Assembly: GCA_026770585.1 (NCBI GenBank)
Contig: MU646688.1
Span: 266,442-286,702 of the forward strand
DNA: 20,261 bases
Direction: 5' to 3'
From: Baffinella frigidus
Lineage: Eukaryota > Cryptophyceae > Cryptomonadales > Baffinellaceae
The notes under the pieces were generated by a model, which did no database searches, was not told the origin of the DNA, and saw nothing but the letters and a program-made list of their open reading frames with translations. The position numbers were made by a program, and so were the translations under genes. Positions within the stretch are counted from its first letter, which is position 1. Each line of letters opens with the position of its first letter. This document shows, one piece after another, positions 285 through 20,064 of this stretch.

Positions 285-320
285 GAGGAGGCTGCCGCTG
301 ACTTTGCGCTGGGCGCCGAG
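285..320 (+). CDS. Candidate N-terminal exon, copy A (SCEEAAADFALGAE)
   Basis: The reading SSYSSCEEAAADFALGAE ends at GAG|GT (donor at 321). A Cys-Glu-Glu motif near the N terminus fits the start of the mature region in PF09826 proteins as I remember them. An ATG at 258 would start the same frame (MTYSSYSSCEE), but an acceptor at the upstream CTATAG is equally possible. The last 38 nt including the donor GT are identical to 616-653, showing a recent or conserved duplication. There is no hydrophobic leader, so this may not be the true first exon. Confidence 0.45.
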
Positions 321-322
321 GT

Positions 323-615
323 TCCCCCCCCCCACACACACACCACCACTACCACCACCACCACCACCACCACCACCACCACCCCGAAACCCTACACCCC
401 TACACCCGAAACCAGAAACCCGAAACACGTGACCAGAAACTCGAAACGTGAAACACGAAACCCTAGAAAGGTCAGTAGAAACTCTAGAAACGCGAAACGC
501 TGGGGGGTATTTGATTACCGCCATGACCTTTCTCGTAGCAATTTCTGGGCAAATATCCCTCTGGGGCCCCCTTTTCCGAGTATGAAATAGCCTCGACACC
601 TCGCACTCCTCGTGT
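323..615. repeat. Spacer with C-run, CA and CCA microsatellite
   Basis: Holds a C-run, then CACACA and about ten ACC/CCA triplets to about 380, then heptamer-like GAAACC words. The open frames here (poly-Thr on +, poly-Gly on -) are microsatellite translations. No coding signal is seen until copy B. Confidence 0.7.
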
Positions 616-651
616 GAGGAGGCTGCCGCTGACTTTGCGCTGGGCGCCGAG
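616..651 (+). CDS. Candidate N-terminal exon, copy B
   Basis: Second copy of the CEEAAADFALGAE block, preceded in frame by SHSS and followed by donor GTGCCC at 652. The upstream AAATAG resembles the CTATAG before copy A, so both copies seem to carry the acceptor side too. Which copy is used, if either, cannot be told from sequence. Confidence 0.45.
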
Positions 652-760
652 GTGCCCTCCCCCTACCCGAAACACCAAACACCAAGCACCAAACATCAAA
701 CTCGAAACTCGAAACACCAAGCCCTAAGCTCCAAACTCCTAAACAGCACGCCCCAAACCA

Positions 761-1262: not shown

Positions 1263-1410
1263 AGTCGCCCGACTACTGCAGGTTTAACCCAACAACAAAC
1301 TATAAACCTCACCCTGAACCATTCATCTAATCCCCAACCCCTCACCTCTAAACCCTAAACCATAACCCCCAAACCCTAAACCTTAAACCTGAACCCCCGC
1401 GCCCTCCCCC

Positions 1411-2887: not shown

Positions 2888-2941
<54 letters not shown>

Positions 2942-5900
2942 GAGAGAGCCCACAGCGAGTGCGGCCCAGAATGTACCACCCACGGCGGGTGCAGACGCCT
3001 CGTCCTGGACGCCCGACTACTAGGGAACGAACAAGCAGGTCACGCGCCTCGTGTCGCGTCCTACAAGTACGAGGTGTTGGTACAAAGGCTGCCCGCATGA
3101 GTCAACTGGCGTGATCAGGCGGGGTTCTCTGGCGAGTGCGGGCGTGGGGGGGTCGGCGGCCACGGCTAGTGAGGACGCCACACGTTGGACGTTGGACGTG
3201 ATTCGGCCAGCAACAACCAGGTCATGGGCCTGCTTTCAGAATTACGGGTTTAGAGGGGTGAGGGTTTAGGCGTTAGGCCCTGAAGCCTCAACCCTCAACC
3301 CAGCCGTGGAACGCGTTGTCACACGCAAGGCCCTTCGAATTAATTCTTTGTTTCAGAAGTTGACTAAATTCGGGGGGGGGGGTGGAACGTGGAGGGGGCG
3401 GATGAGGGGGGCACAATTAAGACGGACGGCGAGTTCATCTTTATCCTCGTACCTTAACCCTACACCTTACACCCTACACCCTAAACCCCAAACCCTAAAT
3501 CCGCAGGGTTTTGAAAACATTAAGGGTTTTGAAAACCTTTTGGGCTTCGGGTTTCGGGGCAAACCCAACACCCTGATCAGAATCCCGAAACCGGAGGGGT
3601 GGAGGGCACGGACGAGGGGGATATAGAACACCCTGATCCCGAATCCCGAAACCTAGGTGGAGGGGACGGACGAGGGGGACATAGCCCTTTCGAAAACCTT
3701 TCGGGTTTCGGGTTTCAGGTTTCGGGTTATACGCAACATACTGACCCCCACAACCCCTGGCTGTAGGTGGAGGGGTTGTTTCAGAAGTTGACTAAATTCG
3801 GGAGGGGGGTTGTAGGTGGAGGGGGCAGACGAAGGCCATATAGTCAAGACAGACGGCGAATTCATCTTCATCCTCCCTGCCTAAGCCATGCACACTAAAC
3901 CCCCATAACCCAACTCCAACCCTGACACCCTGAACCCAGTTCCGCCAGCGATCTCACACGCGCGGCCCTTTGAATTAATGAATTGTTTCAGAAATTGACT
4001 AAATTCGGGGGGGGGGGGTAGGTGGAGGGGGCGGACGAGGGGGACATAGTCAAGACGGATGGCGAGTTTATCTTCATTCTCCCTGCCTACGAGCTCCAGC
4101 TGGTACTAGACCCTAACCCCTACACTCTAAACCCTCGACCCTACTCTTATCATACTCCCTACCTAGGAACTCCAGACAGTACCCTGAACCCTACACTCTG
4201 ACCCCTAAAACCCACACTCTAACTCCTCGACCCTAGACCCTAGACTTCAACCAGAACGCCCAGGCTGGTAACGCGTCCGTCTCTGGGCTGCTCACGAGAG
4301 CAGAAGATGCTCAAGACAGTCACCTACCCAATGTCATATATCACCAAGTATGCAACGTATACGAAGATAACTCGGTCGTGCCTCCCTAACCCCTGAACTC
4401 TAGATCCTAGACCCTAGCATAGTCAAGACGGACGGCGAGTTCATCTTTATCCTCCCTGCCTACGAGCTCCAGCTGGTACCCTAGACCCTAGACCCTAGAC
4501 CCTAGCCCCCAGACCCCAGACCCTAGACCCTAGACCCTACACTCTAATCATACTGCCTGCCTACGAACTCCAGATAGTACCCTGAACCTTACACCCTAGA
4601 CCACGACACCTGCACTCTGAACCTAGACCCTGAGCCCCAAAACGCTGAACCCACAAACCCGTACATCCGCCCTGCCTAAAATGGTACCTCATCGGTGCAC
4701 CCCTGAACCCTGGTTCTTACACTCTCAACCCTTTTGATACCTCAAACGCTACACCCCAACCCCCACACCCTACAACCTACACACTACACCCTACACCACA
4801 AACCCTATACCACAAACCCCACACTCCAAACCCTAAACCCCAAACCCCAAACCGTATGCCCGAAACGCAGGACCCAGCAAGAGGAGATAGCGAAGAGCTG
4901 TTCGGTACGGGCGTACCCGTTTCATCAAGCCGCGCGTGTCTCGAACCCCAAACCCTCAACCCTACACACCAAACCCTCACCCCCAAACCCCAGCGAAACC
5001 CTCACCCCGAAGCTCCAAACCCCAAACCCTGTGCCCGAAACCCAGGACCCAGCGACAGGTGATAGAGAGGGGGTACGTGTTTGATCAAGCCGCGCGCGTC
5101 TCAAACCCCAAACCCCAAACCCCAAACCGTACCCCATACACCCCAACCCCCGAACTCCCAAACTCGAGACCCTCAACCAAGAAAACATAACAGGAGATTG
5201 CAAGAGCGTATCTGTTTGATCAAGCGGCGCGTGCACCTTGCTCCCCAAACCCTCAACCCTACACACCCAACCCTCACACCCAAACCCCAACCAAGCCCTC
5301 ACCCTGAGCCTCCAAATCCCAACCCCTGTACCCTAAGCCCAGCACCCTGACACAGGTGATAGCAAGGGTGTACCCCTTCGATCAAGCCGCGCCTATCTCG
5401 GCCACGGACCTCCGCCCCTACCGCATTCGGGTGCTCGGGGTTTAGGATTTTAGCGCTGAAGGTTTATGGCGTTGGGTTTACCGGTTTTAGGGTGCAGGGT
5501 GCAGGGTTTTAGCGCTTAAGGTTTTATGGCTTAGGGTTTACTGGTTTTAGGGTGTGGGGTGCAGGGTGTAGGGTGTGAGGGTTAGAGATGTCTCGCACCT
5601 GGATGCATCCAGGTGCGCGTCCCACGATCCAGAACACAAGTGTAGACTGCATCAACCCTTGGATCGAGAAGAGGTGCGGGGTCTGGGTATGAGGATGTAG
5701 GGTTTCTCTCTCTCCCTCTCTCCCTCTCTCCCTCTCTCTCTATCTTTCTCTCTCGCTCGCTCGCTCTCTCTCTCTCGCTCTCTCTCTCCCTTGCTCTCTC
5801 TCCCTCTCTGTCAGAGTGTGTCGTGACGATGTCGCGAGAAGAAGAAGACCCTGCAGAGTCGCCCTCGTCGGCGCCCACCACCTAGGTATCAGAGTTCACG

Positions 5901-12932: not shown

Positions 12933-15900
12933 ATATGTGTACATGTATATACATCTGTATGTATGTATATATATATGTATGACTTATTGGAATCCTCTGG
13001 AAGGTGGAGAAGCTCGACACGCCCAACGACCCAACGGCTTTTCGCCACGGTCCACGCGCTCCACACCTCCTGGCCCCTCGCCCCAAGGGTTGTCCCTGCG
13101 AACCAACAAAAGCAAACCTAACCCATCGCCCCTACTAGGGGTCGTGGGGTCCTGCAGCCCCAACCCGTGGGTTCGTGGGGACCCCCTCCTCTTTCCACCC
13201 TCGCCTCTCTCCTTTCTCTATCCTCCCTCTCCTCGCTCCTCTCTCTCGCTCCTCTCTCCCGCCTCGCTCTCGCAGGATCACAACCTGTACTGGATGATAA
13301 CAGTGGAAGCCCAAACTAGGTGTTATCATGCAGTACAGGAACCTCGACACGCCAAACGGTTTCGTCTCGGTCATCGCGATGCACACCTCCCTCTCCCCCT
13401 ACTTCCAACAGGGTGTGATGGCAAGAGGGTCCGACAGGAAACTCTACCTTAATGTTTGGATCCGGATGAAACCTGGGATTAACCTATCATCGCGAAGGTG
13501 GAGAACCTCGACGCAAGCCCACCCGATTCGTCTCGGTGATCGATGTGACACGCCCACCCGATTCGTCTCGGTGATCGATGTGTATATATGTATATATGTG
13601 TACATATGTATACATGTATGTATGACTTATCAACCCCAAACCCCAAAGCCTTGAACAGGTGGAGAACCTCGGCACACCCAACGGATTCGTCTCGGTCATC
13701 GCGATTCACACCTCGCCCGAGAAACTCGGAGAGATCTCCACCGCAACCCACGTCGGACGGTCTCAACCCCCCCTCACAAAGAAATCGATGATCTCACGTC
13801 AGACGGCGTCGAAACCCGAAACCCCTCAGGGGGTCCCGAAACGCACCTTGTCTTAAGCCTAAACCCTAAACCCTAAACCCTAAACCCTAAACCCTAAACC
13901 CTAAACCCTAAACTCTAACACCCTAAACCCTGATCCCCAAGCCCGCAACCTCAGACCCTAAACCCTAAACCCTAAGCCCTAAATCCTAAACCCTAAACCT
14001 CAAATCCTAAACCTCAAACCCTAAACCTCAAACCCTGAACCCTAAACCCTGAACCATGGAAGGTCTTCCTCCGCCCCAAACCCTAAACCCTAATCCCAAA
14101 CCCCGAAATCCCAACCGCCTAAACCCTGACCCCCCACACCCTATACCCAAACCTATGAACCCAAAACTTACAAAAGGTACACCGCAAACCCTAAACCCTA
14201 AACCCCAACCCCCTAAACCCTGATCCCCACACATGAAAAAACAGGGGCTACAACGTGATGATGTCTCTGTCGAACATCTACATCGCGCAGACAAACTGGA
14301 ACTACATGACCACCCAGGTCCCCACACTGCAAAAAACATTCACTAAAATGTTTTCAAGATCCCCGGAATCCGAAACATTTCACTGAAATGTCTGCAGGAC
14401 CCCCCCGGAATCCGGGGGGGGGCGTTATCAAGTTTGCACGAAAAGGAAAGGTCTTTCCGCCACCCCAGATCTCAAAAGGTTTGCTTTTCGTTTTGGAGGT
14501 TTGGGTGTTTGGGTGTGGGGCGGGGGGGTGAGACAACGTGATGGTGTCGCTCTCGAACATCTACATCAAGCAGACAAACTGCAACTACATCACTACCCTG
14601 GTGCCTCTCTCTGCCGTTGTCACATCAAATGCTTCTGAACCCCGAAACCCGAAACCCGAAACCCTAACCGAAACCCGAAACAGCGCTGCCCCTTAGCCGC
14701 CAATTCTTGGTGGATCTACGGCCCGCAACCTGAACCCTGCATCCTAAAGCTAAACCCTAAACCCTATACCCCGAAACCGAAAGCCTCCACACTCTACAGC
14801 CTAAACCCCACACCCACACCCCCAGACGCCCGGCGGACTCCCAACAGAAGGGGTCTGGACAGCCGTGCTCAAGTTCGCCATGAACGCTGGCACCCCCACC
14901 TTCGCCACGCTGCTCACCGTCCCAGGCTCTATCCTCAACCAGGTTCTCCTGAACCCATCCTGAACCAGTTTCTCTTGAACCCCGTGCCCCAAACCTGTTG
15001 CAGCTCTCTGTCCTCAACCAGGTTTCATCTCACAGAAAAGCCATTCCAAAAATGGTTTCTCTCCAACGAAATTTACTACACAAACGCTTCACTATTGCGA
15101 GTATCGTCAAATTGTGTGGTAACTTTCGTTGAAGAAACTCTTCCTAGACAGCTTTATTTGAGATAACGAACGCCGGAACCCTAAACCCTAAACCCTGGAC
15201 CCAAAACCTTGAACCCTCCTTCTCCACGCTCCTCACCGTCCCAGTCTCCATCCTGAAGCAGGTTCTCCTGAACCAGGTTCTCCTGAACCAGGTTCTCCTG
15301 AACCCCGTGCCCCAAAACATGTTGCTTCTTTGTCCTGAACCAGGTTGCGCCAACAACAACCTGTTAGGCAGTGCCCGAAACCTGAATCAGATAGGCATCG
15401 TGCCCAACAGCCAAACACTAAACCATAATCCCTCTTTTTCGAAACTCCACACAGTCCCGGGCTCTGTCCTGAACCAGGTTATCCTGAACCCCTCCTGAAC
15501 CAGGTTGTCGTGAACCCGTGCCCCACAACCTGTTGGTAGTGATTTACAATGGACTTATTCAACAACTTTAGAGGTAGATAATGGACTTGTTCAACAACAT
15601 TAGCAGTAGCCTCGCACGGCAACGTCCTCTTCAGCTTCCCATCCGGATCAACTCGGGGATGGATCTTGAGCCATTTCCTTCGAAAGAGGGTTCGAAAACG
15701 GGTCCTCGCTCGAAATAAATGGCTCATGCTCCATCCTCTATTTGATGCTCTATTTGATCTCAGCTGAGAAACGTTGACAGGCAGGCTAGCCTGGCCACCT
15801 TGAAAGTCACCCCCACCTTGCCTCGCCCCACCTTTCACGGCATTCACAGGGGTGCCACATCAGCGTCACAGCGCGGAGCAATACAGAGAGAGAGAGAGAG

Positions 15901-16122: not shown

Positions 16123-19100
16123 GTAGATGTAGGTAGATATAGATACATAGATAGCTACATACATACATACATACATACATACATACATGCATGCATACAT
16201 ACATACATACATCGATACATTGATACATCGATAGATCTAGATCGAGATAGATAGATAAACAATAAACCACAAATATTCTGAGCGAGTGTTGGTCCTGCAG
16301 TTTTCGATGGACGAGAGCAGCGGCAACTTCCGGATCGCGACCACTTATGGCGAAATGTGGGCAGACCCCCCGACGAGTACATCTGGGGTGTACATCTTCG
16401 ACCCGTCCGGCGAGAGGATTGGCGAGGTGCTTGGAACCATTTGATGCCCTTGGAACCATTTGAGGATCGGCGAGGTGTTTGGAACCATTTGTTTGTCCTT
16501 GGAACCATTTGGTGCTCTGGGGATACAGCCCCGTGTAGGATGACCGGAGTGATATTACACGGGGCTGTATCCCCAGAGGTGCTTGGAACCATTTTCATGT
16601 CCTTGGAACCATGTGTAGGTGCTTGGAGACGTTTTCTTGTGATTGGAACCATTTGAATATCCTTGGAACCACGTGTACGTCTTGGAAGCATTTACATGTC
16701 CACACTGCGAGCTACGAGGGGATTTTCTGGCCGACATTGCGCGGTTTTCCGTTAGGATAGCCCTATAAATAACCATATCTCCCTACGGATTGCCTACCGT
16801 AGGGTCTATGGATGATCCATTTATGGGTTGTGCACGGTCCAGGGGGGCGTGGGCTTAGGTGGCCCGCCTGCTATGTTTCTTGTGGGGTTCAGGTGACCGG
16901 CCTGCTGTTAGGTGACCTGCCTTCTGACTGGTGACTGTCTTGAGGATTTCAGGTGACGGGTCTCGCCAAGGGGGAGCGGATCTACTCGGTCAGGTTCCAG
17001 GGGGACATGGGCTACGTCGTCACCTTCCGCCAGGTCTGCCCTTACCCTAAAACCTGAACCCGTAACACTAAACCCTACAACCTAAAACCTAAAACCTAAA
17101 ACCTTAACCCCGAACCCCGAACCCCGAACCCCGAACCCCGAACCCCGAACCCTACACCCAAAATATTCGTCACCTTCCGTCACCTGCCGGCAGGATGAGG
17201 GTTTGGGGTTTAGGGTGTGTGGTTCGAGATTCAGTGTGTAGGGTTATCTACTCGGACCGGTTCCAGGAGGATATGGGCTACGTCGTCACCTTCCGCCAGG
17301 TTTGTCCTTAACCCTGAACGCTTAACACTAAGCCCTTAACACTAAACCCTAGACCCTAGACCCTAGACCCTAAACCCTAAACCCTAGAGTCTAAACTCTA
17401 AACCCTTAACCCTTAACCCTAAAGCCTAGACCCTAAATCCTAAAACCTAAAACCTAAAACCTAAACCCTAAAACTTCAACCCTAAAACCTAAAACCTAAA
17501 CCCTAAACCTAAAACCTAAAACTCTAAACCCTAAACCCTGACCCCTAAACCCCAAACCCTAAACCATAAATCCCAAACCCTAAACCCCAAACTCCTCGTG
17601 ACCTTGCGTCACCTGCCGGCAAGTTGAGGCTTGAGGGTTTGCGGATTGCGCTTTGCGCTTTGCGCTGTGCGCTTTGCTCTTTGCGGTTGAGGGTGTAGGG
17701 TTCTCTACTCTTTCAGCTTCCAGGGGGACATTGGCCACCCACACAGCGGGCTACGAAGAGATTTGCCGGCAGGAAATGCCCGAGTTTCTGCTACCTTATC
17801 CGTAGAACCCCCCTATGTCCCTACGGGTTGCCTGCCGTAGGGTCGTATGTCTTATCGCTCAAAGGTTGTTGAAGAAATGCCTTGAACGTCAGCTGTGTGG
17901 TTGGGCCACTTCGGCACGTTCCGCCAGGTTCATTCCCTGAAACAGAAACACCTTTATGGCTGCCAAACCCTCCCCCTAAAATCTAAACCCTAAAACCCCA
18001 CACCCATAAACCCTCATAGAGAGAGAGACATTTATTACTACCAAAGAGTCCTTACACCACCTGGACCCTAAACCCCAAACCTCAAACCCCAAATCCCAAT
18101 TCCTAAACCCCAAACCCGAAACTCCAAACCCAAACACGAAACACGAAACCCCAAACCCCAAACCCCAAACCTTACAACCAGGTGGATCCGCTGTTCGTGC
18201 TGGACCTTTCAGACCCGAAGAAACCTGTCGTCAAGGTGAGGAGAAGTTGACTCATCCCTTGAGAAGTTGACTCATCTTTTGTTTTGCCCGTTTGTGGATC
18301 GGTACTACTGAACCCTTGCTTCTTCGCGGCGCTATCCTGAACCCTTTCTTCGCTCGTGAAACAGCAGCGATACGCGTACCAGACCACTGTGTGCCGAACG
18401 CTGTGTGCCGAAACCTTGAGCGGGCTACGAAGGGATTTTCTGCTCGGATTTAAGCCATTTTCACTTACCTTATCCGTAGGAACCCCCTCTATGTCCCTAC
18501 GGATTGCCTACCGTAGGGTCATAAGATTTATCGCTCAAGGGTTATTCGAAATCCCTTTGACGTCCGCTGTATGGCTTGACAGCCTGTCCCGACGTGTCGA
18601 ATTTCCGCCTTGGCGACTTTGCAAATGGTGTAAAATCATACAAAACATTGAAACGCATCTTCTCGAGTTTCCTGGTTCAAAGGGAGTTTCCAAGTCGGCA
18701 ATTTGGCACTTCGAGAACGGCCAGGTCCCACCAGAGGATCTCTACTGAACCATTCTTCGCTCTAATGAACCATTATTCGTTCGTGGAGCTCTACTGAACC
18801 ATTCTTTGTTCGTGGAGTCTGCTGAACGATGTTTCGATGGTGGGGCAGGGTCAGCTGAAGATCCCCGGCTTTTCGGAATACCTCCACCCCGTCAACCGCA
18901 CCCACCTCCTCGGTCCTCCCCCCTGTCCCAACCCCGGTTGGGAGGCTGTGGACGCCCCAGCGAAATTCGCGTCAGTGCCTTGCCTCGCCTTGAAAGGCCC
19001 CTTACGACGGCGGAGGCCTCCACTTTTTGACGCGTTTTGTACGGGACTTTCCGACTGAATATGTATCATGTCGCAAAGTGGGCATCCTCCACACCGTGAA

Positions 19101-20064
19101 GCGCACCCCCCTTCTCGGCAGTAGCTACTGCACTTGACACTTGCTACTTCCGAAGTAGCAAGTGCGCTTCGGGTGCCTACCTGTGCCTCAAACCCCTTCA
19201 CGCACTCCACTGTTCACAACTTGCCTTACTTTCTTCGCGGTACAAATCCGTCAACTTTGAACCAGGCGCCCCCCCCCCTGTACCAAATCTGTTTGAACGA
19301 TCTCATGCGGAAACTGATTTAATTTAAAGCATTTGGGCAATGAAATTTACTACACATGATTATCATTACTTGTAATATTAAAGCGTTCGTGTAGTAATGT
19401 CCATTCTCGCCAGATGTACAACTGTTTTAAGTTGTCCTATGAGATCTTTGCGCGGTCGCGGTCATTCGGATTTCTGCTGGAGTAAATCTGGGCACGTCGT
19501 TGTTAGTTTTAGAGCAGGGACTCCAGTACGAATCAAATACTTTTAGGCGTCTGAATGTATTTGATGACGTGCCCAACTTTACTCGGACAGAGCTAGACTC
19601 CCTAGCTCTGCCTGAGTTTTATGCTGGCTCGTCCTTTAAAGTATTTAAGAGCAGAACTTCAGCACAAAAGGTTGAATAGAAAGCCTTTGGGACAAGCCAG
19701 AGTAAAAACTGAGAACGGGCAATCCGGATTCTGCTCTGCAACACCCACCATTCCAAACCGGGTTGATGGGGATTCAATCACTTCCATGGGTTTCTGGTGC
19801 GTTCAGTTTTCACGCAGGGCTCTTTGGGGGGCTATTCAAAAGTCAATTTTAGAAGGAAACGGTATTCAAAAGTCAATTTCAGAAGAAAATGGCTCCAAGA
19901 ACGGAATAAGGGCTCCAAGAATGGACCAGGAATGCCCCCACGAAGGGCCTTGCGTGGTGTATGGGAGGTTCCGCCTAGATTTATTAACCCCTGAACCCCT
20001 CACCCAACGCTCCCAGGGCTGGGCAAGGAGACGGTAGACAACAACGGGAGGGTCACGACGAAAG
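2732..20064 (+). CDS. Split gene for a secreted-type beta-propeller protein (PF09826/COG4880), gene model over all exons
   Basis: Proposed join: 2732-2824, 4022-4102, 5356-5430, 6976-7057, 7928-7971, 8551-8595, 9215-9292, one or more uncertain exons (perhaps 10924-10972), 12169-12224, 13659-13759, 14245-14317, 14826-14942, 16301-16426, 16953-17033, 18182-18235, 18849-18912, 20017-20064. This gives about 400 residues of a domain that usually lies in proteins of several hundred residues. Blade motifs occur in family order: DEGDIVKTDG, MLLDGDNLVIIG, VWNVANKAAP, SRLVARVAYVV, LSNIYIAQTNW, VPGSILNQ+FSMDE, GERIYSVRF, VTFRQ+VDPLFVLDLSD, IPGFSEYLHP. Every intron is GT-AG except one possible GC donor, and phases match across all secure junctions (for example G|GG between 7057 and 7928, CG|G between 13759 and 14245, G|GG between 18912 and 20017). 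COG4880 proteins are described as secreted beta-propellers of unknown function. No signal peptide exon was found; the 3' part lies outside the window. Confidence 0.88.
2889..2948. repeat. (GA)n microsatellite
   Basis: About 60 nt of AG/GA dinucleotide with one C interruption. Open frames over it (Arg-Glu or Leu-Ser repeats) are artefacts. Confidence 0.95.
2991..3038 (+). pseudogene. Decayed copy of the DYSGTNNQ exon end
   Basis: Reads ADASSWTPDY, stop, GTNKQ, then donor GTCACG. The homology to 2777-2824 is clear, but TCT became TAG. The intron start is also copied (CACGCGCCTCGTGTCGCGT, compare 2866-2886). Confidence 0.75.
3172..3220 (+). pseudogene. Second decayed copy of the DYSGTNNQ exon end
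   Basis: Starts GAGGACGCC and ends CAGCAACAACCAG|GTCATG. The centre is scrambled (ACGTTGGACGTTGGACGT), but the donor side matches 2810-2830. Confidence 0.65.
3389..3448 (+). CDS. Exon copy 1: VEGADEGGTIKTDGEFIFIL (possible alternative exon)
   Basis: Open 20-codon copy of the first-blade exon. It starts in phase 0 but has no convincing AG directly upstream (a run of G). It ends CTC|GTACCT, which lacks the PAYELQL extension of the copy at 4022 yet keeps phase 0. It could be an alternative exon or a decaying copy. Confidence 0.5.
3599..3687 (+). pseudogene. Two truncated copies of the VEGxDEGDI exon start
   Basis: 3599-3627 reads VEGTDEGDIE and 3657-3687 reads VEGTDEGDIA. Each is followed by unrelated heptamer text. 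The second keeps an acceptor (CCTAG|GTGGAG). Both share the A-to-T substitution relative to other copies, so one derives from the other. Confidence 0.7.
3816..3884 (+). pseudogene. Copy of the VEGADEG exon ending in a stop
   Basis: The acceptor TTGTAG is followed by VEGADEGHIVKTDGEFIF, then ILPA and TAA at 3882. The exon is nearly intact, but its last part is replaced by a stop and no donor follows. Confidence 0.7.
4022..4102 (+). CDS. Exon: first blade, VEGADEGDIVKTDG...ILPAYELQL
   Basis: The most complete of eight copies. It starts in phase 0 after GGGGTAG and reads VEGADEGDIVKTDG, EFIFILPAYELQL, then donor GTACTA at 4103. V-E-G-x-D-E-x-D-I-V-K-T-D-G followed by a hydrophobic strand is the hallmark opening of PF09826. 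Phase 0 at both ends fits the DYSGTNNQ exon before and VIARVYPFDQ after. The acceptor has a poly-G stretch instead of a pyrimidine tract, preceded by TTGACTAAATT, which could serve as branch point. Confidence 0.88.
4103..4874 (+). repeat. Intron with three partial copies of the first-blade exon
   Basis: Partial copies of the exon 3' end lie at 4149-4177 (in-frame TAG), 4418-4475 (IVKTDGEFIFILPAYELQL with donor GTACCC) and 4547-4576 (IILPAYELQI with donor GTACCC). The rest is CCCTAGA/CCCTGAA heptamers. A non-repetitive stretch at 4255-4387 reads AGNASVSGLLTRAEDAQ in one frame, but I recognise nothing in it. Confidence 0.7.
4875..4946 (+). pseudogene. Copy 1 of the VIARVYPFDQAA exon
   Basis: Reads QQEEIAKSCSVRAYPFHQAA, with 9 extra bases relative to the other copies, and is preceded by GAAACGCAGGACCCAG. 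It could be skipped or used; a GT (GTGTCTCG) follows at the position where copies 2 and 3 also have GT. Confidence 0.55.
5059..5103 (+). pseudogene. Copy 2 of the VIARVYPFDQAA exon
   Basis: Follows ACAG and reads VIERGYVFDQAARVS. Possible donor GTCTCA at 5098. The frame is open and phase 0 is kept, so use as an alternative exon is not excluded. Confidence 0.55.
5194..5240 (+). pseudogene. Copy 3 of the VIARVYPFDQAA exon
   Basis: Follows AACAG and reads EIARAYLFDQAARAP. GTGCAC follows CGGCGC at the same relative position as the GT in copies 1 and 2. Confidence 0.55.
5356..5430 (+). CDS. Exon: VIARVYPFDQAAPISATDLRPYRIR
   Basis: Fourth and longest copy. Acceptor CTGACACAG; reads VIARVYPFDQAAP then ISATDLRPYRIR; donor CGG|GTGCTC at 5431. 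Phase 0 at both ends joins ILPAYELQL to PTEMLLDGD, matching the family layout in which a short blade-one segment precedes the P-T-E-x-x-x-x-G-D motif. Unlike copies 1-3 it lacks the early GT, which lengthens the exon. Confidence 0.78.
5431..5580 (-). repeat. Telomere-like heptamers in reverse orientation
   Basis: GGTTTAGG, GGGTTTACCGG and GCAGGGT words, the G-rich strand on +. Two similar halves (5447-5515 and 5516-5580) share GGTTTATGGCGTTGGGTTTACCGGTTTTAGGGTG-like text, a tandem duplication of about 60 nt. Confidence 0.8.
5581..5987. other. Intron stretch with CT microsatellite, otherwise unrecognised
   Basis: Contains the palindrome CCTGGATGCATCCAGG (5598-5613), a CT-rich microsatellite at 5705-5815, and unique sequence at 5820-5985 ending in ACGGTTT words. 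No family motif is seen on either strand. Confidence 0.6.
5988..6170. repeat. Minisatellite, about 31-nt unit, six copies
   Basis: The unit is approximately TCACGCTCTCTCTCATACTC followed by GTAACTAAATC. Copies differ by substitutions and one internal change (AAAATATTG). Confidence 0.85.
6186..6215 (+). pseudogene. Most degenerate copy of the PTEMLLDGD exon start
   Basis: GCAGCCGACGAAGTTGCTGC followed by CGGGCGAT aligns with the start of the exon at 6976, with several substitutions. Confidence 0.6.
6353..6420 (+). pseudogene. Copy 2 of the PTEMLLDGD exon
   Basis: Reads PTEMLLDGD and then diverges (TCCLSSSG), but the DNA (GGGGCAGCCTCTCGAACATA) still aligns with copy 3. Confidence 0.7.
6625..6684 (+). 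pseudogene. Copy 3 of the PTEMLLDGD exon, with stop
   Basis: Acceptor GTGCAG, then PTEMLLDGDNLVIVG, TASGT and TAG at 6685. The stop replaces the CTC codon of the exon at 6976. Confidence 0.75.
6826..6864 (+). pseudogene. Copy 4 of the PTEMLLDGD exon, truncated
   Basis: Acceptor CACAG, then PTEMLLDGDNLVM, then GTAGAT, which would be a donor in phase 0. Minisatellite follows at once. Confidence 0.65.
6976..7057 (+). CDS. Exon: PTEMLLDGDNLVIIGASSGTLRS...
   Basis: The acceptor CTCTCTCTCTCTCGCAG has the best pyrimidine tract in the window. The exon reads PTEMLLDGDNLVIIG, ASSGTLRSSASA and one extra G before donor GTCCTC at 7058. P-T-E-x-L-x-D-G-D-x-L-V-V-I-G is a conserved blade element of PF09826. 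The phase-1 end pairs with GG at 7928 to give a Gly codon. The donor text G|GTCCTCCCCCC recurs at 18912. Confidence 0.9.
7210..7413 (+). pseudogene. Two later copies of the exon 3' end with donor
   Basis: 7210-7267 reads DNLGILGAASGTLSSSAFA and ends GCTG|GTCCTAAACC, the same donor as 7057. 7393-7413 keeps only CGATCCTCCGCCTCTGCGG|GTCCTG. Both donors run straight into telomere-like heptamers. Confidence 0.72.
7551..7683. mobile_element. Foldback element, MITE-like
   Basis: The arm AAAACCGGGTAGTTGAGCCTAC (7558-7579) is complementary, with two mismatches, to GTAGGCCTAACTACCCGGTTTT (7658-7679). Inside, CAGTAGGCCGTA (7579-7590) pairs with TACGGCCTACCGTAG (7636-7650). Overall about 130 nt of near-continuous hairpin, typical of a non-autonomous foldback transposon. 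Confidence 0.75.
7684..7927. other. Intron remainder
   Basis: Includes GGGGTTGGA/TTTGGGGGTTGG words in reverse orientation (7741-7795), CCCCAAA words, and GCGCGGGCGGCAGGGCATCAA, for which I have no assignment. Ends in the acceptor GTAACAG. Confidence 0.5.
7928..7971 (+). CDS. Exon: QESDERYLQTAVIQ
   Basis: The acceptor GGTAACAG is followed by GG, completing a Gly codon with the G at 7057, then QESDERYLQTAVIQ and donor GTTACT at 7972. Position and pattern match the strand just before the VYDVSD-type blade. Short (44 nt), but both phase joins work (phase 1 in, phase 0 out). Confidence 0.72.
7972..8550 (+). repeat. Intron of telomere-like heptamers with partial exon copies
   Basis: Almost entirely CCCTAAA, CCCCAAA, CCCGAAA and CCCTGAA words. 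Partial copies: ACCATCCAG|GTCGCG (8240-8255, compare the exon end at 7971) and CCACAG|GTGTGGAATGTG (8424-8441, reads VWNV, compare the exon at 8551). Confidence 0.82.
8551..8595 (+). CDS. Exon: VWNVANKAAPVLIKQ
   Basis: Acceptor CGCCAATCAG, 15 codons, donor CAG|GTTATT at 8596; phase 0 at both ends. V-x-N-V-A-N-K-A-A-P-V-L corresponds to the V-Y-D-V-S-D-x-x-x-P-x-L blade signature of PF09826. It joins VIQ to VEVEGS. Confidence 0.87.
8620..8656 (+). repeat. Tandem GTTCGAAAGTTGACTAA motif
   Basis: Two copies of TTCGAAAGTTGACTAA; the second runs into AATGCAG. The same GTTGACTAA word precedes the VEGADEG exon copies (3359, 3786, 3997). No exon follows this AG that I can recognise. Confidence 0.6.
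8693..8825. mobile_element. MITE-like foldback element, family 1 copy 1
   Basis: Left arm from GGAAACTGATCTGATT (8695) through CAATGAAAATTACTACACAT (8725-8744); right arm from ATGTGTATTAAACTTCATTG (8774-8793) through AATCAAATCAGTTTTC (8807-8822). The arms are roughly 50 nt and complementary. Related copies lie at 15036-15164 and 19309-19405. Confidence 0.8.
8943..9073. mobile_element. Foldback element with about 30-nt arms
   Basis: Left arm 8943-8972 (GGGTTTCGGAACCCCAATCC then CTACTACACC) is complementary to right arm 9044-9073, with three mismatches in 30. The 71-nt centre shows no coding motif. Different arm sequence from the other foldbacks. Confidence 0.78.
9074..9214. other. Intron remainder
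   Basis: Unique sequence with CGCATATAGGCCCGCGACAC and CTCTCCTCTACAGGAGAAT; no family motif. Ends in the acceptor GGCCACTTGCAG. Confidence 0.5.
9215..9292 (+). CDS. Exon: VEVEGSAVTSRLVARVAYVVVQTSPQ
   Basis: Acceptor CTGGCCACTTGCAG, 26 codons, donor CAG|GTACGT at 9293 (the most consensus-like donor here). Reads VEVEGSAVTSRLV then ARVAYVVVQTSPQ. The pattern V-x-x-x-G-x-x-V-x-S-R-L-V followed by V-x-Y-V-V is a conserved blade of PF09826. Phase 0 at both ends. Confidence 0.92.
9436..9470 (+). pseudogene. Decayed copy of the VAYVVVQTSPQ exon end, with stop
   Basis: Reads RVACVVV, stop, TSPQ, then donor GTATAC. The Gln codon CAG has become TAG. Confidence 0.8.
9550..9592 (+). pseudogene. Second copy of the VAYVVVQTSPQ exon end, donor lost
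   Basis: Reads VSRVAYVVGQTSPP; CAGGTA is replaced by CCAATA, so no donor remains. Confidence 0.78.
9736..9885. other. Unassigned intron/exon stretch
   Basis: Non-repetitive. One frame reads VVYSEREVACSIHIHRL before a stop near 9852. It falls where the family has a variable loop, so an exon could be hidden here, but I see no recognisable motif. Confidence 0.4.
9886..10352 (+). repeat. Three tandem copies of a block ending GCGACGTGGACAG|GT
   Basis: Copies end at 10034, 10227 and 10351; each contains GGTCGTCGGTTGCG, GGGTAGCGACGTGGACAGGT or close variants. Longer shared text: GCGCGCAGGAGAC (9886, 10132), CAAGAGGCTCCAGCTGTAGG (10082, 10273). The donor-like CAG|GT end suggests echo copies of an exon. 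One frame reads VVGCVARQRRGQ, which I cannot place in the family. Confidence 0.7.
10414..10556. repeat. GA microsatellites
   Basis: AG/GA runs at 10414-10490 and 10530-10556, separated by unique sequence reading LEYIFTRPPER in one frame (no assignment). Confidence 0.9.
10557..10923. other. Intron stretch with exact 31-nt tandem duplication
   Basis: TCGCTGGCTTGGCCTCGACG continuing to GCAG occurs at 10707-10737 and again at 10747-10777 without mismatch (period 40). The rest is unique and ends in the acceptor-like GGTTGTGCAG at 10923. Confidence 0.6.
10924..10972 (+). CDS. Candidate exon EDIIRSAPLEEPHLRA with GC donor
   Basis: After TTGTGCAG the frame reads EDIIRSAPLEEPHLRA plus one G; the next bases are GCGACT. 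If this is a GC-AG intron, phase 1 pairs with AC at 12169 to give Asp, which fits DAARGVPMARIC. A decayed copy at 11395-11435 also has CGCAG followed by GC. The family usually has a longer loop here, so another exon may be missing. Confidence 0.4.
11035..11290 (+). repeat. Heptamer-like intron DNA
   Basis: CCTAAATCC and CCCTAAA-type words, with AATCTACGCAACCCTAAACC repeated at about 11025 and 11063. No coding motif. Confidence 0.65.
11291..11435. other. Intron, unique, with a partial exon copy
   Basis: 11395-11435 (ACCTGAACTTACCGCGCAGG then CTGCCACTGGTGCGCA) is a diverged copy of 10958-10990. The remainder shows nothing I recognise. Confidence 0.5.
11433..11955 (+). repeat. Largest internal telomere-like tract
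   Basis: About 520 nt of heptamers. Locally homogenised variants occupy separate blocks: CCCTGAA (11480-11535, 11720-11762), CCCTAAA (11542-11570) and CCATAAA (11578-11652, about ten nearly perfect copies). Confidence 0.92.
11958..11993 (+). pseudogene. Decayed copy of the DAARGVPM exon with acceptor
   Basis: AAAATAG|ACGCGGCACGC, then TGGATGTTAATGGATCTGCA, aligns with AAAACAG|ACGCGGCGCGG at 12162. Acceptor AG and phase are kept, but the donor end is lost. Confidence 0.7.
11994..12168. other. AT-richer unique intron DNA
   Basis: No repeat or coding motif beyond two similar words, AAGATAGCCAATTTCGACGTG and GAAGATAGCATAAAT. Ends GGTTGACAACGTTTTAAAACAG, combining a GTTGAC word with the acceptor. 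Confidence 0.5.
12169..12224 (+). CDS. Exon: (D)AARGVPMARICNCNSLTK
   Basis: Acceptor TTTTAAAACAG; two bases complete an Asp codon if the previous exon ends in G, then AARGVPMARICNCNSLTK and donor AAG|GTGCCT at 12225. A Cys-containing stretch before a V-S-V-I strand fits the family's variable loop. Phase 0 out joins VENLDTPNG. Three other copies lie nearby. Confidence 0.66.
12236..12500 (-). repeat. Reverse-oriented telomere-like tract with two partial exon copies
   Basis: GGGTTTGGGG, GGGGTTTAGAG and TTTAGGG words with the G-rich strand on +. Embedded: ATTTGCATCTGCATCACCCC then GCAAAGGTGC (12406-12435) and GGATCTGCAATTGCGACGCC (12500-12519), both diverged copies of the exon end at 12195-12224 in + orientation. 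Confidence 0.75.
12549..12830. other. Intron with CCGAAA words and a faint VENLDTP copy
   Basis: CCACCTCCAACTTTTGTCTC then GG (12713-12734) resembles CCACCTACTTTTCGTCTCGG at 12849. TTAAGTTGACGGA at 12674 is another GTTGAC word. The rest is unassigned. Confidence 0.5.
12832..12878 (+). pseudogene. Copy 1 of the VENLDTPNGFVSVI exon, frameshifted
   Basis: Acceptor ACCAG, reads VENLDTPTYF, then shifts frame; TCGTCTCGGTCGTCGATATG matches the other copies. It runs into the TATG microsatellite. Confidence 0.78.
12879..12982. repeat. TATG/TA microsatellite
   Basis: ATGT, TA and ATATGTGTACATG runs, copied in shorter form at 13581-13625 after another copy of the same exon. Confidence 0.9.
13003..13088 (+). 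pseudogene. Copy 2 of the VENLDTPNGFVSVI exon, frameshifted
   Basis: Acceptor GGAAG, reads VEKLDTPNDPTAF; an extra T in TTTT shifts the frame from FATVHALHTSWPLAP. Ends CCAAG|GGTTGT. Confidence 0.72.
13089..13335. other. Intron with CT-rich tract
   Basis: CT-rich 13180-13270 ending TCTCGCAG at 13275, a good acceptor, followed by DHNLYWMITVEAQT in frame and a stop; I cannot place this in the family. Confidence 0.45.
13340..13433 (+). pseudogene. Copy 3 of the VENLDTPNGFVSVI exon (open frame)
   Basis: Acceptor GTACAG, reads NLDTPNGFVSVIAMHTSLSP; the first two codons are missing, which puts the join out of phase 0. The 3' end diverges from the copy at 13659. Could be an alternative exon only with a different upstream phase. 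Confidence 0.6.
13498..13582 (+). pseudogene. Copies 4 and 5 of the VENLDTPNGFVSVI exon (nested duplication)
   Basis: 13498 starts VENLDASPPDSSR and stops; at 13546 the block ACACGCCCACCCGATTCGTC then TCGGTGATCGATGTG repeats and reads TPTRFVSVIDV in frame. The internal duplication of about 39 nt is nearly exact. Confidence 0.78.
13659..13759 (+). CDS. Exon: VENLGTPNGFVSVIAIHTSPEKLGEISTATHVG
   Basis: Acceptor CCTTGAACAG, phase 0. Reads VENLGTPNGFVSVIAIHT, SPEKLGEISTATHVG, then CG and donor GTCTCA at 13760. The strand VSVIAI followed by a loop and STATHVG precedes the NIYIA blade as in PF09826. The last codon CG|G completes with the first base at 14245. This is the only one of the copies with the full 3' half and correct phase. 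Confidence 0.88.
13858..14230 (+). repeat. Telomere-like intron
   Basis: 13858-13910 is a clean CCCTAAA array of seven to eight copies; after that mixed CCCTAAA, CCTCAAA and CCCTGAA words. Confidence 0.92.
14245..14317 (+). CDS. Exon: GYNVMMSLSNIYIAQTNWNYMTTQ
   Basis: Acceptor ATGAAAAAACAG. The first G completes Arg, then GYNVMMSLSNIYIAQTNW, NYMTTQ and donor CAG|GTCCCC at 14318. V-x-x-S-x-x-N-I-Y-I-A is a recurrent PF09826 blade strand. Phase 0 out joins TPGGLPTEG at 14826. No pyrimidine tract precedes the acceptor. Confidence 0.9.
14318..14532. other. Intron with tandem duplication
   Basis: CATTCACTAAAATGTTTTCA (14337-14356) and CATTTCACTGAAATGTCTGC (14377-14396) are diverged tandem copies, each followed by a CCCCGGAATCCG-type word. 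TTTGGGTGTTTGGGTGTGGG is reverse-oriented heptamer-like. Confidence 0.6.
14533..14600 (+). pseudogene. Copy of the NIYIAQTNW exon, open frame, wrong phase
   Basis: Reads NVMVSLSNIYIKQTNCNYIT then TL, and donor GTGCCT. It is well conserved, with replacements A to K, W to C and Q to L, but lacks the first codons; splicing at GTGAG|AC would shift the frame relative to 13759. Possibly a decayed or silent copy. Confidence 0.7.
14601..14825 (+). repeat. Intron with GAAACCC words
   Basis: CCCGAAA array at 14641-14680, unique stretch 14683-14735, then CCCTAAA words and acceptor CACACCCCCAG. Confidence 0.65.
14826..14942 (+). CDS. Exon: TPGGLPTEGVWTAVLKFAMNAG...TVPGSILNQ
   Basis: Acceptor CACACCCCCAG, phase 0. 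Reads TPGGLPTEGVWTAVLKFAMN, AGTPTFATLLTVPGSILNQ, then donor CAG|GTTCTC at 14943. T-A-x-L-K-F followed by V-P-G-x-x-L-N-Q, with FSMDE in the next exon, is the most diagnostic stretch of the family (V-P-G-x-x-L-N-Q-F-S-M-D-E). 39 codons. Confidence 0.93.
15036..15164. mobile_element. MITE-like foldback element, family 1 copy 2
   Basis: Inner arms CAACGAAATTTACTACACAA (15064-15083) and TTGTGTGGTAACTTTCGTTG (15112-15131) are complementary apart from a few mismatches. The outer parts (AGAAAAGCCATTCC..., ...CTAGACAGCTTTATTT) are more diverged. Same inner consensus as the copies at 8693 and 19309. Confidence 0.78.
15214..15261 (+). pseudogene. Second copy of the TVPGSILNQ exon end with donor
   Basis: Reads PSFSTLLTVPVSILKQ then GTTCTC. 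The intron start after it is also copied (CTGAACCCCGTGCCCCAAAA, compare 14975-14993). Followed by a 15-nt tandem repeat AACCAGGTTCTCCTG. Confidence 0.82.
15450..15477 (+). pseudogene. Third copy of the TVPGSILNQ exon end with donor
   Basis: Reads HTVPGSVLNQ then GTTATC; again followed by GAACCCGTGCCCCACAACCT. The donor is intact. Confidence 0.8.
15549..15612. repeat. 32-nt tandem duplication
   Basis: ATGGACTTATTCAACAACTT then TAGAGGTAGATA is followed by ATGGACTTGTTCAACAACAT then TAGCAGTAG. Confidence 0.8.
15658..15735. mobile_element. Small foldback
   Basis: GATGGATCTTGAGCCATTT (15658-15676) pairs with AAATGGCTCATGCTCCATC (15717-15735), two mismatches in 19. Loop of 40 nt. Could be a foldback element or chance remnant. 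Confidence 0.6.
15762..15956. repeat. 19-nt direct repeat flanking 157 nt
   Basis: AGCTGAGAAACGTTGACAG is identical at 15762-15780 and 15938-15956. Between them lie unique sequence and a GA microsatellite (15884-15906). Confidence 0.85.
16010..16260. repeat. GA, GATA and CATA microsatellites
   Basis: AGAGTTAGAGTTATAGATAT, GA runs (16054-16092), GATA repeats to 16125, CATA repeats 16160-16215 and TCGATACAT words. Confidence 0.93.
16301..16426 (+). CDS. Exon: FSMDESSGNFRIATTYGEMW...VYIFDPSGERIGE
   Basis: Acceptor GTTGGTCCTGCAG, phase 0. Reads FSMDESSGNFRIATTYGEMW, ADPPTSTSGVYIFDP, SGERIGE, then donor GAG|GTGCTT at 16427. F-S-M-D-E-x-x-G-x-x-R-I-A-T-T is the family signature; the following V-Y-x-x-D strand and I-G-E lead into V-x-G-L-A-x-G-E. 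Longest exon of the window (42 codons) and, with 14826, the best evidence for the identification. Confidence 0.96.
16427..16695 (+). repeat. Minisatellite with TTGGAACCATTTG core
   Basis: About a dozen copies of CTTGGAACCATTT-type words of 20-30-nt unit. Four of them begin with GAGGTG or AGGTG (16424, 16468, 16576, 16615), so the exon end and donor (GGCGAG|GTGCTTGGAACC) appear to be part of the repeated unit. Confidence 0.85.
16515..16578. mobile_element. Perfect 23-bp inverted repeat
   Basis: CTCTGGGGATACAGCCCCGT continuing GTA (16515-16537) is exactly complementary to 16556-16578; 18-nt loop. It is flanked on both sides by GTG (16512-16514 and 16579-16581), a possible 3-nt target duplication. 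The lack of any mismatch contrasts with all other foldbacks here. Confidence 0.82.
16705..16830. mobile_element. MITE-like element, family 2 copy A
   Basis: GCGAGCTACGAGGGGATTTT, then the palindromic CCCTACGGATTGCCTACCGT then AGGG (16781-16804). Lower similarity than copies B and C, and the right end is lost or diverged. Confidence 0.7.
16831..16952. other. Intron with GGTGACC words
   Basis: AGGTGACCGGCCTGCTGTTA, AGGTGACCTGCCTTCTGACT and TGGTGACTGTCTTGAGGATT resemble the acceptor region AGGTGACGGGTCTCGCC; these look like partial acceptor-side copies of the next exon. Confidence 0.6.
16953..17033 (+). CDS. Exon: VTGLAKGERIYSVRFQGDMGYVVTFRQ
   Basis: Acceptor TTGAGGATTTCAG, phase 0. Reads VTGLAKGERIYSVRFQGD, MGYVVTFRQ, then donor CAG|GTCTGC at 17034. 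G-L-x-x-G-E-R-I-Y-x-V-R-F-x-G-D-x-x-Y-V-V-T-F-R-Q is one of the most invariant segments of PF09826. 27 codons, no ambiguity. Confidence 0.97.
17034..17160 (+). repeat. Heptamer intron DNA with CCCCGAA array
   Basis: CCTAAAA words (17083-17104), then six CCCCGAA copies (17107-17149). Confidence 0.9.
17161..17299 (+). pseudogene. Copies of the SVRFQGDMGYVVTFRQ exon
   Basis: 17246-17299 reads IYSDRFQEDMGYVVTFRQ and ends CAG|GTTTGTCCTTA, the same donor and intron start as 17034, but the upstream AG (GTGTAG) gives the wrong phase. 17165-17190 is a short copy, TTCGTCACCTTCCGTCACCT. The reverse heptamers between them are GGGTTTGGGGTTTAGGGTG. Confidence 0.8.
17300..17745 (+). repeat. Telomere-like intron with three more short exon copies
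   Basis: 17310-17590 holds CCCTAGA, CCTAAAA and CCCTAAA blocks. Short copies: CTCGTGACCTTGCGTCACCT (17600-17619) and TTCTCTACTCTTTCAGCTTC then CAGGGGGACATTGG (17701-17734). GCGCTTTGCGCTTTGCGCTG-like repeats (17647-17685) lie between. Confidence 0.78.
17738..17905. mobile_element. MITE-like element, family 2 copy B
   Basis: Starts CACACAGCGGGCTACGAAGA, contains ACCTTATCCGTAGAACCCCC, CCCTACGG (17819-17826) and CCGTAGGG (17835-17842), and ends GAACGTCAGCTGTGTGG. The ends ACACAGC...GCTGTGT are complementary. Confidence 0.82.
17906..18181 (+). repeat. Intron, heptamer-rich
   Basis: CACTTCGGCACGTTCCGCCAGGT (17907-17929) is a further TFRQ-type donor copy. GAGAGAGACATTTATTACTA (18019-18038) resembles GAGAGTTCTTTATTAACAAC at 10551. 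CCCCAAA and CCCGAAA words fill the rest; ends CTTACAACCAG. Confidence 0.7.
18182..18235 (+). CDS. Exon: VDPLFVLDLSDPKKPVVK
   Basis: Acceptor CCTTACAACCAG, 18 codons, donor AAG|GTGAGG at 18236; phase 0 at both ends. F-R-Q+V-D-P-L-F-V-L-D-L-S-D-P-x-x-P is a signature of the family and follows TFRQ exactly. Confidence 0.97.
18236..18418. other. Intron, first part
   Basis: A 22-nt tandem copy of GAGAAGTTGACTCATCYYTT (18241-18260, 18261-18280 approximately) lies just after the donor, another GTTGACT word. Then GAACCCTTGCTTCTTCGC and GAACCCTTTCTTCGCTCGTG repeats. No coding motif. Confidence 0.6.
18419..18570. mobile_element. MITE-like element, family 2 copy C
   Basis: AGCGGGCTACGAAGGGATTT near 18420-18438 pairs imperfectly with AAATCCCTTTGACGTCCGCT (18550-18569). 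The centre has CCTTATCCGTAGGAACCCCC, CCCTACGG (18495-18502) and CCGTAGGG (18511-18518). Best preserved of the three copies. Confidence 0.85.
18571..18848. other. Intron, last part
   Basis: Unique DNA, then three copies of CTACTGAACCATTCTTCGCT / AATGAACCATTATTCGTTCG / CTACTGAACCATTCTTTGTT-type text at 18745-18820 (unit about 35 nt). Ends GGTGGGGCAG. Confidence 0.6.
18849..18912 (+). CDS. Exon: GQLKIPGFSEYLHPVNRTHLLG
   Basis: Acceptor ATGGTGGGGCAG, phase 0. Reads GQLKIPGFSEYLHP, VNRTHLL, then one G before donor GTCCTC at 18913. G-x-L-K-I-P-G-F-S-x-Y-L-H-P is the strongest signature of PF09826. The phase-1 end pairs with GG at 20017. Confidence 0.96.
18913..19308 (+). other. Intron with a copy of the YLHPVNRTHLLG exon end and a short hairpin
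   Basis: 19085-19116 (TCCTCCACACCGTGAAGCGC then ACCCCCCTTCTCGG) reads LHTVKRTPLLG with one indel, a decayed copy of 18880-18912; the donor GT is replaced by CA. CACTTGCTACTTC-C-GAAGTAGCAAGTG at 19138-19164 is a perfect 13-bp hairpin with a 1-nt loop. Confidence 0.68.
19309..19405. mobile_element. MITE-like foldback element, family 1 copy 3
   Basis: Left arm GGAAACTGATTTAATTTAAA then GCATTTGGGCAATGAAATTTACTACACAT; right arm reduced to CGTGTAGTAATGTCCATT (19388-19405). The left arm matches the copy at 8695 along its length. Confidence 0.78.
19481..19610. mobile_element. Nested foldback element
   Basis: AGTAAATCTGGGCACGTCG (19481-19499) pairs with GACGTGCCCAACTTTACT (19566-19583); ATCAAATAC (19532-19540) pairs perfectly with GTATTTGAT (19557-19565); CAGAGCTAG and CTAGCTCTG (19588-19610) form another hairpin. 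Confidence 0.72.
19611..20016. other. Intron, unique DNA with a short tandem repeat
   Basis: A 138-codon open frame (19621-20037) crosses it but has no recognisable motif and runs out of frame into the next exon. GGTATTCAAAAGTCAATTTC then AGAAG occurs twice (19830-19885), and GGCTCCAAGAA twice. Ends AACGCTCCCAG. Confidence 0.6.
20017..20064 (+). CDS. Exon: (G)LGKETVDNNGRVTTK
   Basis: Acceptor CAACGCTCCCAG. GG completes the Gly codon started at 18912, then LGKETVDNNGRVTTK plus one G before donor GTGAAC at 20065. L-G-K-E-x-x-x-N-G-R-V-x-x-x-G follows H-L-L-G in the family, so order, phase and sequence all agree. The next exon would start the K-V-S-L-F-D-V strand and lies outside the window. 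Confidence 0.88.

Follow-up and report, generated by a model that had tools for sequence, protein, structure and literature searches.

Partial exon copies in the introns of a beta-propeller gene of Baffinella frigidus

The gene and its exon copies

The stretch of DNA analyzed here, 20,261 nucleotides long and referred to as the window, lies inside a 403,253-bp contig (C380:266442-286702) of an assembly of 382,457,362 bases in 1364 contigs from Baffinella frigidus, a single-celled cryptophyte alga of the Arctic. It contains part of one intron-rich gene of the Beta_propel family (PF09826); the concatenation of its open exons, 281 residues, exceeds the Pfam cut-off for that family by a wide margin (254.9 bits versus 22.4, E=2.2e-75). 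Within the best 120 of 7593 protein matches, the top one is P0001, "beta propeller domain-containing protein [Baffinella frigidus]," a model of 778 amino acids whose record places it on a 408,514-base contig. The window accounts for residues 1-596 of P0001, which match it exactly and in order in 25 pieces, each 10 residues or longer; the remainder lies beyond the window. Because several full-length relatives have residues N-terminal to the start of the first exon, the start of the gene, judging from the alignment, may lie further upstream. We chose 21 exons (X1-X21) from open frames and splice sites. All sit inside the exact pieces of P0001, with differences in end or frame at X6, X9, X11, and X12. 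A tRNA scan, an Rfam scan at gathering scores, and a viral-contig scan of the window gave no match, and in a rhodopsin search for more Baffinella proteins 0 of 21 matches were so named, most being without a name.

Four pieces of P0001 in the window do not belong to parent exons but coincide with copies of X1, X6, X7, and X18. P0001 repeats peptides of parent exons, namely AAADFALGAE (622-651), PTEMLLDGDNL (6625-6657), and EDMGYVVTFRQV (17267-17302), and the X7, X18, and KVSLFDV repeats are absent from eight aligned relatives. On this comparison, P0001, a public protein model, seems to take exon copies for exons, and other gene models of the Baffinella genome may do the same, which users of these models should keep in mind. 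Beyond the window, KVSLFDVTDPTKPKE also occurs twice in P0001.

All exons and copies described below are on the plus strand, and the copies, given with the bases of the parent that they cover, were found by blastn. X6, X9, X10, X11, X12, and X21 are based on open frames, splice sites, and P0001; the other exons are P0001 pieces. X1 (MTYSSYSSCEEAAADFALGAE, 258-320, an exact piece) has a downstream copy at 605-651 (bases 17-63 of 63, 96% identity, GT donor kept), of which P0001 uses 622-651 as an exon. X2 (1187-1281; P0001 piece 1187-1279, end set by the GT) has two upstream copies with the AG kept, at 762-804 (bases 1-43) and 1056-1117 (bases 1-62, 87%). X3 (1574-1621) is preceded by copies at 1418-1434 (bases 5-21, weak, E=0.007) and 1473-1498 (bases 1-26) and followed by one at 1780-1820 (bases 1-41 of 48), the one clear exception in the window to the polarity considered below. 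X4 (2735-2824) has an upstream copy at 2322-2357 (bases 1-36, AG kept) and a downstream copy at 2991-3038 (bases 43-90, donor kept, in-frame stop). Upstream of X5 (VEGADEGDIVKTDGEFIFILPAYELQL, 4022-4102) are copies at 3389-3448 (bases 1-60, AG lost), 3599-3626 and 3657-3684 (both bases 1-28, AG lost in the former and kept in the latter), and 3816-3883 (bases 1-68, AG kept); for the first of these, masked self-comparison also reveals duplication of 59 nt of upstream intron (3313-3371). Downstream of X5 are copies at 4150-4175 (bases 53-78, in-frame stop), 4418-4475 (bases 24-81, donor kept, with the intron after the copy also duplicated), and 4548-4573 (bases 53-78), the last colinear with the copy at 4150 in a nested duplication. 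X6 (5356-5439, ending at 5430 in P0001) has upstream copies at 4909-4943 (bases 11-45; P0001 uses 4871-4915 as an exon), 5059-5095 (bases 1-37, AG kept), and 5196-5230 (bases 3-37, AG kept). X7 (PTEMLLDGDNLVIIGASSGTLRSSASA, 6976-7057; P0001 piece 6976-7059) has upstream copies at 6356-6383 (bases 1-28, AG lost), 6625-6683 (bases 1-59, AG kept; 6625-6657 is an exon in P0001), and 6826-6863 (bases 1-38, AG kept, 97%) and downstream copies at 7208-7267 (bases 23-82, donor kept) and 7393-7413 (bases 60-80).

In the second half of the window, X10 (VEVEGSAVTSRLVARVAYVVVQTSPQ, 9215-9292) is followed by copies at 9435-9470 (bases 43-78, donor kept, in-frame stop) and 9550-9589 (bases 37-76), and X11 (9893-10035, extended to 9851 in P0001) by copies at 10139-10227 (bases 49-143, donor kept, frameshift, intron unit also duplicated) and 10311-10350 (bases 107-143, donor kept). 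X13 (12165-12224) has a weak downstream copy at 12495-12528 (bases 26-59, E=0.01). Upstream of X14 (13659-13759) are three copies with the AG kept and a frameshift, at 12830-12874 (bases 1-43), 13004-13069 (bases 1-56), and 13498-13542 (bases 1-43), as well as copies at 13339-13389 (bases 6-56), adjoining a hairpin, and at 13549-13577 (bases 15-43), adjoining the copy at 13498. X15 (14246-14317) has a downstream copy of almost the full exon at 14533-14598 (bases 5-70 of 72, 88%), and X16 (14826-14942) has two with the donor kept, at 15214-15261 (bases 70-117) and 15450-15477 (bases 90-117). X18 (16953-17033) is followed by copies at 17246-17299 (bases 28-81, donor kept, 93%; P0001 uses 17267-17302 as an exon), 17704-17738 (bases 29-63), and 17902-17927 (bases 56-81, donor kept), and X20 (18849-18912) by one at 19086-19117 (bases 33-64, donor lost). 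X8 (7927-7971), X9 (8551-8595, ending at 8583 in P0001), X12 (10924-10982, where the P0001 frame differs from that chosen here), X17 (16301-16426), X19 (18182-18235), and X21 (20016-20064, where P0001 runs on past the window) have no copy over either the blastn or the local-alignment threshold.

In total, exon-by-exon blastn of the window at E<=0.05 yielded 42 direct copies, none of them farther than 3 kb from its parent, and 1 inverted copy, the local and direct arrangement expected of tandem duplication; in 100 windows subjected to local dinucleotide shuffling, the averages were 0.94 direct and 0.70 inverted matches per window. Copies at E<1e-3 occur for 14 of 21 exons. In a second test, by local alignment, 15 of 21 exons and 20 of 42 exon sides reached p<0.01; when the reverse complement was used, 0 of 42 sides exceeded z=4. 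A masked self-comparison of the whole window, blind to the exons, likewise found 37 direct versus 2 inverted pairs at E<=0.01, an excess whose absence would have undone the preliminary description of this locus. That description had counted at least a dozen exons with one to seven partial copies each, adjacent to the parent and in its orientation, and these statements hold (1 to 7 copies per exon at E<=1e-3); its phrase "nearly every exon" was generous, given the six exons without a copy. The splice sites that it singled out, at 7267, 15261, 15477, and 17299, are all the ends of copies that terminate at the last base of the exon, with the GT donor intact. Neighboring copies are mostly 100-450 bp apart (median 205.5 bp, range 37-457, 34 spacings), and the span between an exon and its outermost copy at E<1e-3 accounts for 7231 of 18170 bp of intron (39.8%).

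The introns hold other repeats as well. A dispersed element at 8685-8831, 15060-15131, and 19299-19405 occurs in direct and inverted copies and is MITE-like, to judge by an internal inverted repeat in the last of them. A segment at 16780-16810, 17745-17870, and 18419-18546 recurs at intervals of 0.7-1.7 kb, and one of its pairs (128 nt at 79%) is the longest direct pair of the masked self-comparison. There are two near-perfect hairpins, at 16515-16578 (30-nt arms, 90%) and at 13284-13339 (19-nt arms, 95%), the latter being the one that adjoins an X14 copy. To the eye, a minisatellite at 16430-16690 appears to be made of the last bases of X17 and its donor region (GAGGTGCTTGGAACCATTT), and 7539-7698 resembles palindromic elements with a TAGTTAGGCCTACGG / CCTACCGTAGGCC-like core that are found on several contigs (L012 6140-6661, L013 4461-6619, and L014 6087-6237). 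Degenerate CCCTAAA-like heptamers abound in introns, mainly on the gene-sense strand, with sense/antisense shares of 24.3/3.2% in the window introns, 30.0/0.2% in L011 and L023, 34.1/1.5% in L032 and L033, and 40.9/0.0% in L034. One of these four heptamer-rich genes is on the minus strand of its contig, and the orientation of the heptamers seems to follow transcription.

Polarity, flanks, and decay of the copies

The part of the exon that a copy retains depends on the side on which it lies. Among the 34 direct copies at E<1e-3, 16 upstream copies reach only the 5' end of the exon and none only the 3' end, whereas 13 downstream copies reach only the 3' end and 1 only the 5' end (16:0 versus 1:13, p=1e-7); of the 4 others, 3 reach neither end and 1 reaches both. 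When the dynein genes discussed below are pooled with the window, the Fisher p value is 7e-11. Besides the downstream copy of X3, the exceptions are a weak upstream match of X18 (bases 44-61, E=0.049) and one copy of D1, a dynein piece. Splice signals follow the same pattern. In 30 copies picked by hand from the 42, the set also used for the flank analyses below, AG is kept in 13 of 17 upstream copies and GT in 12 of 13 downstream copies. Such polarity is predicted by simple tandem duplication with one exonic and one intronic breakpoint, where the order of the units dictates the side on which a one-ended copy must lie (as found here and, at 9:0 versus 1:4, in the dynein gene), and is not predicted by dispersed or retroposed insertion. 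An origin of the copies from cDNA was considered and rejected; by eye, the sequence preceding the X14 copies is unlike the preceding exon.

The intronic flanks of the copies give a mixed picture. In ungapped comparison, identity is about 0.9 over the last exon bases, 0.67-0.68 over the five intron bases next to them, and about 0.4 further out, a drop that could mimic copying that stopped at the junction. With gaps allowed, flank similarity exceeded 95% of the null of unrelated flanks on 5 of 7 group sides upstream and 5 of 10 downstream (the best pair being scored on each side, with no correction), and long colinear intron homology is present at X5, X11, and X16, with nested copies at X5. On the remaining 7 of 17 group sides, e.g. 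at X15, X10, X4, and X20, flank homology was not above the null, a lack that plain tandem duplication would produce only with fast intron turnover; for these sides, fast turnover or later insertions must be assumed.

Copies have diverged to different degrees. In the 37 copies with E<=1e-3 (three at E=0.001 exactly; 5 of the 42 with higher values were left out of the divergence and substitution counts), identity to the parent is 77-97%, with a median of 86%, a graded series. The pooled pN/pS of 0.31 suggested that the copies themselves might be constrained and functional. This idea was discarded, as the constraint falls on parent-side changes, common to all copies: sites where all copies differ from the parent have 12 synonymous and 2 nonsynonymous changes. 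Private changes, each found in one copy alone, comprise 37 synonymous and 52 nonsynonymous, an omega near 0.5; exon sites covered by a single copy have 21 and 32, and changes common to some copies number 8 and 5. A model with a constrained parent (omega 0.06) and neutral copies fits both the private (p=0.91) and the single-copy (p=0.89) ratios. Private nonsynonymous changes are rarer than full neutrality alone predicts (p=0.003), a deficit that would be expected if older copies also record earlier changes in the parent. Recurrent local duplication followed by decay, as first proposed for this locus, is supported by the graded identities, the polarity, the flanks on 10 of 17 group sides, the constraint on the parent lineage, the fit of the window copies to neutral change, and the recurrence of the pattern in two other genes.

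Occurrence in other genes

A second gene on another contig, C30:53818-64715, encodes a dynein heavy chain (E=8.1e-121 to a solved dynein), and its chosen exons align with the solved protein in one stretch (1-259 on 2914-3173). We divided it into 19 peptide pieces (D1-D19) read by eye, which are not always whole exons. At E<=1e-3, 11 of these 19 pieces have local copies, 17 direct and 1 inverted, and 8 have none; two further direct matches represent two pieces that resemble each other. The polarity is again 9:0 upstream versus 1:4 downstream, with 2 full copies and 1 that reaches neither end. For the substitution counts, one of the 17 copies (D2, 16 nt) was left out, and for D1 the second full copy served as the parent. 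The pN/pS in this gene is 0.20. The partial copies (17 synonymous changes, 14 not) are compatible with neutral decay (p=0.14). The full or nearly full copies, of D1, D7, and D12, are nonetheless constrained (17 synonymous, 7 not), more strongly than a neutral copy should be (p=0.003); on these substitution patterns, some whole dynein copies may therefore code now or have done so formerly.

A dynein gene on a third contig (C23) carries a downstream copy of an exon 3' end (41 nt, 100%) and an upstream copy of a 5' end (69 nt, 84%) on 2 of its 5 exons; the other 3 have none, and there are four inverted matches of 12-18 nt with E between 0.009 and 0.03. In 1 kb of a dynein gene on C86, the two exons tested have no copy. 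At C65:237012-237473, a dynein AAA_9 match over positions 1-154 lies in a single open frame of 421 amino acids, the matches on C23 and C86 being shorter; judged by this frame, some genes of this genome may be intron-poor.

Since two dynein heavy chain genes, on C30 and C23, show it as well, the pattern is not peculiar to the beta-propeller locus. The subtelomeric setting that had been supposed for the window is not supported: the window occupies 266-287 kb of a 403-kb contig and is interior at the contig level, with no sign of a chromosome end adjacent, and the pattern extends to other contigs. More broadly, of 29 stretches sought from the genome, 11 were at least partly readable (63,240 bp), and in these random stretches the local repeats at E<=1e-3 number 53 direct and 18 inverted, compared with 28 direct and 1 inverted in the window at the same settings. 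An excess of direct repeats thus exists elsewhere but is weaker than in the window. Several of the inverted pairs are palindromic elements, and by eye no genes were identified in the open frames of the other random stretches.

Mechanism and relation to known systems

Local tandem duplication together with splicing explains the anatomy of this gene. It is probable that the introns of a conserved gene grew through many local tandem duplications, each straddling one splice junction. A duplication with its start in the upstream intron and its end within the exon would leave a truncated exon start upstream, usually with its acceptor; one that spans from within the exon to the downstream intron would leave an exon end with its donor downstream. 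The intact exon and its outer splice sites would survive either type, and the spliceosome would presumably skip the extra piece, making the change nearly neutral. From then on, the parent exon would remain under purifying selection while the partial copy decays, and the intron would have been lengthened. Replication slippage or end-joining, or perhaps unequal exchange, may make the duplications. Introns also contain local direct copies of their own sequence, which are harder to detect.

Several other mechanisms could, in principle, leave related patterns. First, duplication might be targeted to exon-intron borders, for example by breaks linked to transcription or R-loops, instead of falling uniformly along genes. 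A local direct copy is indeed found for exon tiles 3 times as often as for unmasked intron tiles (66 of 119 versus 115 of 640). However, the intron tiles have such copies too, and in intron-intron pairs both members decay and low complexity is frequent, so that such pairs are under-detected; this, with selection removing within-exon duplications, could produce an apparent focus without targeting. We therefore do not take the tile excess as evidence of targeting, which seems improbable. The earlier suggestion of a duplication process acting at exon-intron borders accordingly stands as regards a recurrent local process but not as regards border specificity, the conserved parent itself easing detection of exon copies.

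Second, the copies could be alternative or mutually exclusive exons retained for protein variation. The reading frame is preserved in most (of 37 copies, 3 contain an in-frame stop and 4 a frameshift), P0001 takes four of its window pieces from copies, and constraint appears to act on the full or nearly full copies in the dynein gene. Mutually exclusive tandem exons are full exons, however, and among the 34 copies at E<1e-3 just 1 extends to within 5 nt of both exon ends, so that most cannot replace an exon; moreover, their private and single-copy changes fit neutral copies, and the extra X7 and X18 peptides are missing from the aligned relatives. A functional role for the copies as a class is thus quite unlikely.

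Third, telomere-like heptamers, or telomerase acting at breaks, might seed the duplications. Sense-direction CCCTAAA-like sequence makes up 29.1% of non-exon, non-copy bases versus 0.4% of exon bases, but exon-internal breakpoints show no enrichment for telomere-like repeats (0.363 versus 0.334 background, p=0.34), and the CCCTAAA arrays of the window are interstitial, away from the contig end. We consider seeding of this kind very unlikely.

Fourth, in 1989 Rogers reportedly put forward a model of intron gain through tandem genomic duplication involving AGGT, and each pair of parent and copy could be the scar of a new intron born from a duplicated, AGGT-containing exon segment. GT begins 7 of 20 downstream exons, and intron gain through tandem duplication is accepted in the review PMC3443670. 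Against this, at the 95% level of the null, the 5' end of the intron resembles the next exon in 0 of 20 cases and its 3' end the previous exon in 1 of 20. Because intron ends are unlike the opposite exons, we favor intron growth over intron birth, the latter being highly improbable here. Finally, an assembly artefact, or interleaved paralogous loci or haplotypes, is the least likely explanation: the genome is repeat-rich, but the copies are 3-23% diverged and obey the same polarity on three contigs, and functional paralogues should be constrained on both lineages, against a private omega near 0.5 in the window.

Duplication across single junctions, followed by splicing and decay, suggests that the exon-fragment copies are a fossil record of genes growing by small local duplications that splicing hides. 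We extend this to Baffinella as a whole only tentatively, with somewhat less than even confidence: one-junction duplications may be a main engine of intron and genome growth, with the spliceosome as a neutralizing filter, introns lengthened at their edges and carrying a datable, oriented record, and an occasional full copy captured as a new exon. If so, this engine would help to account for a genome about six times that of Guillardia. Intron lengthening is usually ascribed to transposons; another route is represented here by a gene with dozens of copies, oriented and graded in age, and by the same rule elsewhere. The polarity rule would provide a simple genome-wide test of duplication and splicing jointly, and one-junction duplications would supply new exons and introns. 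According to PMC9756366, the published assembly of CCMP2293 comprises 534.5 Mbp, or 6.1 times that of Guillardia theta.

Among the papers listed from the open-licence literature on Baffinella, cryptophyte genomes, introners, intron gain or expansion, and exon duplication, we found no title or abstract opening that reports the oriented exon-fragment pattern, which does not imply its absence from print. Four known systems share features with it. In introners (PMC9860276), as here, DNA is repeatedly inserted into genes and hidden by splicing, but introners are dispersed families, whereas the Baffinella copies derive from the adjacent exon; that text has 0 occurrences of each of the terms "Baffinella," "cryptophy," "guillardia," and "tandem." Tandem and mutually exclusive exons (PMC9013439) likewise adjoin the exon in the same orientation, but they are whole exons in use, and the Baffinella copies are mostly one-ended fragments. 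The Rogers model, as reviewed in PMC3443670, shares with our system local tandem duplication within genes that splicing renders harmless, but the signature that it predicts at intron ends is missing here, and introns appear to grow rather than to arise. The closest published case that we found is the potato RdRp gene (PMC4974935), where one tandem duplication across an intron-exon boundary gave rise to a new intron. There, a single event inserted part of an exon and created a new intron that is spliced; in Baffinella, by contrast, one gene carries dozens of copies, which are probably skipped and have lengthened the introns that contain them.
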